From: an uncultured Spirochaetota bacterium
Lineage (GTDB): Bacteria; Spirochaetota; Spirochaetia; JAFGXN01
Assembly (NCBI GenBank): GCA_944388995.1
Contig: CALXKN010000012.1
Location: forward strand, 1 to 50,524
Length of the DNA: 50,524 bases
Direction: 5' to 3'
Shown one piece after another: positions 49,566-50,524 of the stretch. The notes beneath the pieces were generated by a model that made no database searches, was not told where the DNA came from, and saw only the letters and a program-made list of their open reading frames with translations. Every line of letters starts with the position of its first letter. Position 1 is the stretch's first letter. The translations under genes were made by a program, and so were the position numbers.

Positions 49566-50524
49566 ATGGCTTCAAATGCGGCATTATCCGAAGCAAAAAG
49601 GGCAAAAAAAGACGAGTTCTACACGCAGTATGAGGATATACAGAATGAGCTGAACCACTACGAGCAGCACTTCAAAGAAAAAACCGTCTTTTGCAATTGC
49701 GATGACCCCTTTGAAAGCAACTTCTGTAAATTCTTCCTGCGAAATTTCAATTATCTCGGCTTAAAAAGATTGATATGTACCTCTTACAGTGCTTCTCCGA
49801 TAGCGGGCCGACAACTTTCTCTATTTGACGACGAGAACGAACCTGTCGTTCGTGGGAACGGCTATGTCATGGACATCAGAGAAGTGCCAATGGCAAACGG
49901 CAGAGGCGTTTCAGACGCGGACATTGACGCGCTCTTGAAATCCAAAAAGCGCGGAGTAAAAAAATTAAAAGGTGACGGAGATTTTCGCTCTGATGAATGT
50001 ATCGAATATCTCAAGCAGGCTGATATTGTGGTAACGAATCCGCCGTTTTCCCTGTTTAGAGAATATGTCGCACAACTTATGGAGTATGCCAAAAAGTTTT
50101 TGATTATCGGGAATATAAACGCCATTACATACAAAGAGATTTTTCCGCTTATCAAAGACAATAAATTGTGGCTTGGTGCGAGCATACATAGTGGAGACAG
50201 AAAATTTTTTGTTCCTGAAAATTACCCTCTTAATGCAGCCGGCTGTGGAATTGATTCAGAAGGGAAAAAATACATTAGAGTCAAAGGTGTTAGATGGTTT
50301 ACAAGCATGGATTACGCAATCAGGCATGAGAAACTTGTTCTCTACAAACACTACTACGAAAATAAAGAAGACTACCCGAAATACGACAACTACGATGCGA
50401 TAGAAGTTTCAAAAGTATCGGATATACCAATCGATTACCTGCCCGACAGACAGACAGACAGACAGACAGACAGACAGACAGACAGACAGACAGACAGACA
50501 GACAGACAGACAGACAGACAGACA
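49566..50524 (+). CDS. EcoRI-family adenine DNA methyltransferase, partial, with in-frame SSR
   Basis: Reads open from ATG 49566 to the window end (319 codons, no stop). The start AKRAKKDEFYTQYEDIQNEL, the CDDPFESNFCKFF segment and the catalytic VVTNPPFSLFREY (NPPF motif IV) fit the EcoRI-type m6A methylase family. At codon 294, after IPIDYLP, the reading frame enters the (GACA) tract and encodes DRQT repeats. In relatives a conserved C-terminal part follows this point, so loss or gain of repeat units would switch the full-length enzyme off or on. No restriction enzyme gene is visible. The 3' end is cut by the contig edge. Confidence 0.88.
   Translation, partial: MASNAALSEAKRAKKDEFYTQYEDIQNELNHYEQHFKEKTVFCNCDDPFESNFCKFFLRNFNYLGLKRLICTSYSASPIAGRQLSLFDDENEPVVRGNGYVMDIREVPMANGRGVSDADIDALLKSKKRGVKKLKGDGDFRSDECIEYLKQADIVVTNPPFSLFREYVAQLMEYAKKFLIIGNINAITYKEIFPLIKDNKLWLGASIHSGDRKFFVPENYPLNAAGCGIDSEGKKYIRVKGVRWFTSMDYAIRHEKLVLYKHYYENKEDYPKYDNYDAIEVSKVSDIPIDYLPDRQTDRQTDRQTDRQTDRQTDRQTDR
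50445..50524 (+). repeat. (GACA)20 tetranucleotide repeat
   Basis: Twenty perfect GACA units run to the last base of the window, inside the methyltransferase reading frame. The true length is unknown because the contig ends within the tract. Tracts of this kind change length by slipped-strand mispairing. Confidence 0.98.

Follow-up and report, generated by a model that had tools for sequence, protein, structure and literature searches.

Alternative C-terminal cassettes stacked in different reading frames behind a repeat tract in an EcoRI-type DNA methyltransferase gene of a spirochaete

Known phase-variable DNA methyltransferases are mostly switched on and off, and changes of specificity usually come about by recombination between gene copies. 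The phase-variable type III mod genes (phasevarions) resemble the gene described here in having a repeat tract inside an adenine methyltransferase gene, but they are ON/OFF systems with a specificity fixed by the allele, whereas in the present kind of gene the tract is followed by two or three different ends. The poly-G tract in hsdS of the type I system NgoAV is said to have been reported as phase-variable by Adamczyk-Poplawska in 2011. Slippage in this coding tract alters methylation specificity while activity is kept (PMC6789123); in NgoAV a separate specificity subunit is either truncated or full length, whereas the present enzyme, a single-chain one of type II, seems to select from cassettes that are already in place. 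Type I loci with duplicated hsdS genes hold several specificities at one locus (PMC7394358) and, like the gene presented here, may be seen as stores of alternatives, but they switch by recombination and not by frame.

C-terminal phase variation is a named class, known from Helicobacter canadensis (PMC2823697) and from Neisseria gonorrhoeae, including mafB (PMC5320596), in which a repeat near the 3' end switches the C-terminus among three frames. The present gene likewise has a 3' tract followed by alternative ends in different frames; however, the ends described for that class usually comprise between a few and some tens of residues, or a fusion to the next gene, whereas here the gene encodes a DNA methyltransferase and each frame opens onto a cassette from a single conserved family that matches the profile. 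M.EcoRI and the single-cassette enzymes of PF13651 belong to the same body and cassette family, and most of these relatives lack a tract and end in a single cassette (151 of about 160 loci examined). No paper on frame-stacked cassettes in EcoRI-type methyltransferases was found, in a search that left most subscription journals outside and is weak evidence of novelty. What appears to be new is the combination, namely a single-chain methyltransferase with one tract and, in the frames behind it, a stack of homologous cassettes of the recognition type, recurring across phyla.

The window, by which we mean the whole stretch of DNA analysed (50,524 nucleotides, the complete contig G000:C12), ends in an open reading frame that starts with the ATG at 49566 and at codon 294 enters, in frame, a perfect tetranucleotide tract of 20 GACA units (80 bases, read directly from the sequence), which is not a product of chance. 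Its product matches the EcoRI_methylase profile PF13651 (E 1.2e-125, 419.9 bits, curated cut-off 26.4 bits) as far as position 276 of 345, while the final 69 positions (277-345) are absent from this part of the gene. A sequence-only reading of the same DNA had described an adenine methyltransferase of the EcoRI family with an NPPF motif, interrupted in frame by (GACA)20 in a spirochaete, and all of these points were borne out (Table 1). The final base of the contig is also the end of the tract; the figure of 20 is therefore a limit of the assembly, nothing 3' of the repeat is present in the window, and the true number of units is probably 20 or more.

A genome-wide search for GACA tracts of at least five units detected only two: C12 ends in one of them, and another contig of this genome, C9 (L001/L009), begins with the other. 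In C9 the (GACA)20 is followed by coding sequence for the rest of the gene, which matches PF13651 277-345 twice (C9:121-282 and C9:287-577), so that profile positions 276 and 277 meet at the join. Phage head genes lie at the end of C12 and phage tail genes (PHROGs) at the start of C9. These two groups are encoded on the minus strand and flank the plus-strand genes of the methyltransferase and the nuclease, as expected of one prophage. The proposed join is thus well supported. It would be an artefact of assembly or decay if the contigs did not belong together or if the second cassette were pseudogene debris, and the repeat does end both contigs with no read across the tract; this explanation is nevertheless highly improbable given that the genome has just two tract ends in matching orientations, that the profile positions and the prophage genes continue from one contig to the other, and that the same layout occurs unbroken within contigs of other genomes.

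Table 1. Features of the methyltransferase locus and its surroundings; positions refer to the window unless contig C9 (L009) is named.
Feature	Position	Strand	Basis or remark
Prophage head genes (head maturation protease, major head protein, adaptor/tail fibre-type protein)	44771..48932	-	PHROGs
HicB-like gene, directly upstream	49189..49551	+	Pfam HicB_lk_antitox, E 1.5e-14
EcoRI-type adenine methyltransferase, invariant body	49566..50524	+	ORF, PF13651 profile 2-276; remainder of gene on contig C9
NPPF catalytic motif (within TNPPFSLF)	50037..50048	+	invariant in two alignments
(GACA)20 tract, interrupted by the contig end and resumed at C9:1-80	50445..50524	+	proposed frame selector
Cassette A	L009/C9 about 121-288	+	PF13651 277-345
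Cassette B	L009/C9 about 287-631	+	PF13651 277-345
DUF262-HNH gene, downstream	L009/C9 588-1712	+	Pfam, PADLOC

The phases were read across the inferred join for N = 18 to 26 units. With N = 2 mod 3 the frame reaches the end of cassette A (...NGIMGVPITFLDKYSPEQFEIIGLDRYVPDNPRYGHRFTINGKETYARVLIRKKM, then a stop); with N = 1 mod 3 it is open across A in another frame and continues into cassette B (...SGIMGVPITFLDKYNPDQFEIIGFAGGWNGDSP...YYIRTYGRILIKRK...); and with N = 0 mod 3, the sole truncating phase, it stops just after the tract (QTKVA, then a stop). The GACA tract encodes the same four-residue repeat (DRQT) in all frames and therefore has no stop of its own. It had been suggested that slippage by one unit would truncate the enzyme, which holds for N = 0 mod 3 only, since the two other phases complete it with different cassettes; a stop directly after the tract in every frame, named beforehand as a result that would count against phase variation, was not observed. 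Alignment of the C-terminus behind the repeat to EcoRI-type methylases, a check also put forward by that reading, gave matches to PF13651 277-345 for both A and B (43.6 and 47.0 bits, respectively, both above the cut-off), so that membership of the profile extends to the N- and C-terminal parts alike. Synonymous differences between A and B are saturated, and the two are thus not recent duplicates. The locus appears to be a selector between alternative C-termini with an additional OFF state, not a plain ON/OFF mod gene, and the frame-stacked architecture can be regarded as nearly certain.

A slippage-driven selector of methylation specificity is, in our judgement, the best reading of this locus and a probable one. 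The gene would encode a phase-variable type II methyltransferase, with the tract separating a catalytic body that does not vary from alternative C-terminal cassettes that follow each other in different reading frames. Replication slippage would alter the unit count and, because a unit of this kind does not fill whole codons, every step would shift the frame and join the body to a different cassette; the window genome would thus have a state A, a state B and an OFF state, at the unit counts given above. Exchange of the cassette would redirect methylation to another DNA sequence, and the DUF262/HNH nuclease encoded downstream would follow the choice of the methyltransferase and have no fixed specificity of its own. 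Of the parts of this proposal, slippage as the switch is very likely and a change of specificity between phases is likely, and the switch may have a regulatory effect.

Regarding recurrence, a profile scan found PF13651 matches in 45 of the 393 genomes of the window's phylum, and a tract at the corresponding part of the gene in at least eight of these 45, the window genome included. The location of the repeat near the 3' end, which had been considered unusual, is thus recurrent in this enzyme family. Within unbroken contigs, all three frames of G302, with (GACA)15, and of G148, with (AG)19, terminate in a cassette, and G236 with (GACA)11 and G033 with (AACAG)25 have two cassettes each. Beyond the spirochaetes, carriers of the frame-stacked design, with as many as three tails and one of these per frame, were detected in Bacteroidota, Fibrobacterota, Bacillota and Abditibacteriota, including Riemerella columbina with (GAGAA)12.6, Fibrobacter intestinalis with a poly-G10 tract, a Eubacterium MAG with (AG)9, and MAGs of Abditibacteriota and Muribaculaceae, the former with a short AG tract and the latter with two. 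Repeat units of 1, 2, 4, 5 and 7 bases occur; a multiple of three was never found. The tract stands at one of two sites, either just before the MGVP motif (the window gene, G236 and the poly-G cases) or between the variable loop and the last strand of the first cassette (the remaining carriers).

Plain ON/OFF switching exists in this family too, in that G355 and G331 have heptanucleotide tracts, one cassette and OFF frames, and other Bacteroidota (L243, L247, L257, L252 and L258) have poly-G directly before MGVP with a single cassette that G9 keeps in frame and G10 puts out of frame. These loci favour an explanation of the window gene in which one frame only is active, the second cassette is a leftover of recombination and the other phases are OFF. 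We consider this unlikely for the window, because A as well as B is conserved, matches the profile and has counterparts that serve as the sole cassette of other enzymes; moreover, G302 and G148 have no obvious OFF state, and alternative frames are very rarely open in single-cassette controls. The controls comprise 208 sequences, in which one alternative frame is open across the cassette in four and both are open in none. For each of the 12 full cassettes that occur in stacks, the sole tail of some other enzyme gave a match at 54-86% identity, far above shuffled controls, and their nonsynonymous differences are low (pN 0.11-0.29 against saturated pS), in counts that the overlapping frames complicate.

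The gene was found elsewhere in neither the genus nor the family of the window genome, among the 2-3 genomes scanned. Scanning of viral contigs with the window protein alone gave no match, and scanning with the family alignment gave 80 loci. GACA tracts were present at 80 loci in viral contigs, none of them in the EcoRI-type methyltransferase family, so a GACA tract as such is not diagnostic. Two candidates for multiple cassettes (L075 and L180) were rejected because the second match lies about 1 kb further on, probably in a neighbouring gene. In the Helicobacter phage Pt11509_1 (L222, PQ159904; an H. pylori phage), positions 2035-3450 hold an EcoRI endonuclease and an EcoRI-type methyltransferase; the latter, also rejected, is annotated in two pieces and is without a repeat tract. 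The Muribaculaceae gene (L126, 4383-4597) has two separate AG tracts in one gene and three further tails in two frames, and its double tract could give more combinations than a single one. At L022 (G184) a stop interrupts the methyltransferase and a separate tail follows downstream without a change of frame, with no tract seen; the gene is possibly a decayed copy.

The nearest thing to direct evidence of slippage in this analysis comes from G276, a single closed contig with three copies of the methyltransferase gene, two of which have (AAGAG)n tracts with frames that end in three different tails of the Y-x-R-I-x-I type. These two copies (L048 and L049, at about 1.17 Mb and 1.85 Mb of G276:C1) lie in stretches that are 99.74% identical over at least 10 kb, and the methyltransferase genes are identical at 1,299 of 1,299 aligned bases, with exactly two AAGAG units (10 bases) as the only indel in that alignment. 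The two copies are thus in different frames and have different tails. Ribosomal frameshifting may act in place of DNA slippage; in the G276 pair, however, the length difference exists at the DNA level. A terminase gene downstream indicates that these are prophage copies, and the duplicated stretch also contains a C5 cytosine methyltransferase gene. Only a fragment of a DUF262 gene is present near these copies, and the nuclease is therefore not always part of such loci.

Regarding the role of the cassettes, enzymes with bodies that are 60-79% identical have cassettes less than 35% identical in more than 60% of pairs, and 69 cassette types were distinguished in the sample, with 119 changes of type on a FastTree phylogeny of the bodies; body and cassette thus evolve independently of each other. 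The FRKG..KDL cassette was present in all 15 enzymes encoded beside an EcoRI endonuclease gene and in 30 of 211 others (Fisher 3.5e-12), an association that partly reflects shared ancestry and is not significant in the tree-controlled comparison, where only 4-6 pairs are available and power is low. A single-cassette enzyme of the FRKG type would be expected to methylate GAATTC. In the AlphaFold model of L132, an enzyme with a single cassette (mean pLDDT 86.4), the cassette is placed at the C-terminus as strand, helix, strand, variable loop and strand, the loop comprising about residues 301-318. The core of the model (15-234) matches Dim1/KsgA-type methyltransferases (VIA-align), with the cassette outside this core, and M.TaqI aligns over 22-300; Foldseek of the model gave no PDB match at E 0.001 or better, and no sequence relative of the family was found in the PDB. 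M.EcoRI is a gamma-class enzyme, with the recognition region after the catalytic motif. The decoupling of body and cassette, the association with the EcoRI endonuclease, the model and the class of M.EcoRI together suggest that the cassette is most likely part of a target-recognition element.

The gene that follows the cassettes encodes a GmrSD_N (DUF262)-HNH protein, which gives a full-length match (431.6 bits) to PADLOC REase_II PDLC03418, and the methyltransferase matches MTase_II PDLC03297; the locus thus has the methyltransferase and the adjacent predicted restriction enzyme gene of a type II restriction-modification system. DUF262 genes are present downstream of 155 of the 226 enzymes, with many cassette types, and of none of the 15 with an EcoRI endonuclease gene as neighbour. 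In single-cassette loci the distance from the methyltransferase stop to the DUF262 start has a median of 0 bases (n=125), while in the window genome A stops about 297-300 bases before the nuclease start and B, with its stop at 631, overlaps the start at 588. Phase may therefore also affect expression of the nuclease, and these distances fit a rival in which the switch is real and the cassettes change some property other than specificity, either contact with the DUF262-HNH protein, stability, or nuclease expression by translational coupling, such that only the last frame reaches the nuclease start. We regard this as rather improbable, slightly more so than a plain ON/OFF gene, because about one nuclease family accompanies many cassette types, while the EcoRI endonuclease, which has its own specificity, accompanies one type only. 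If the methyltransferase switches specificity as preferred here, a nuclease of fixed specificity would endanger the cell, and the nuclease should thus depend on the methyltransferase or on its marks.

Regarding the surrounding genes, the HicB-like gene ends 14 bases before the methyltransferase start and the two are probably cotranscribed. No HicA partner of at least 60 amino acids was listed between it and the head gene, and HicB beside the methyltransferase was matched only once across all loci, in the window itself; it is perhaps not part of the system. A palindromic stretch (AAAACCCTTTTCC..GGAAAAGGGC) followed by a second hairpin is shared by window positions 48884-48975 and by L009 at about 13200, where it apparently stands ahead of the head protease gene and of a further gene of the phage, respectively, and the N-termini of these two genes read alike (MCPFPFR.KGFF). 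Inside the head maturation protease gene (47927-47979) there is an imperfect 12/24-base tandem repeat with a unit that is a multiple of three.

A simple repeat thus seems to decide which of the ready-made cassettes is used, and overlapping frames make room for two or three alternatives in one gene. These loci may well, on a balance only somewhat in favour, represent a widespread and so far unrecognised class with one tract, up to three recognition cassettes and a nuclease that takes its specificity from the form of the methyltransferase made. Cultured carriers such as Riemerella columbina DSM 16469 and Fibrobacter intestinalis ATCC 43854 are amenable to long-read methylome sequencing, and the catalogue of 69 cassette types would help to explain how EcoRI-type methyltransferases read DNA. 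If the proposal is true, one locus could hop between restriction-modification specificities in a clonal population without recombination.
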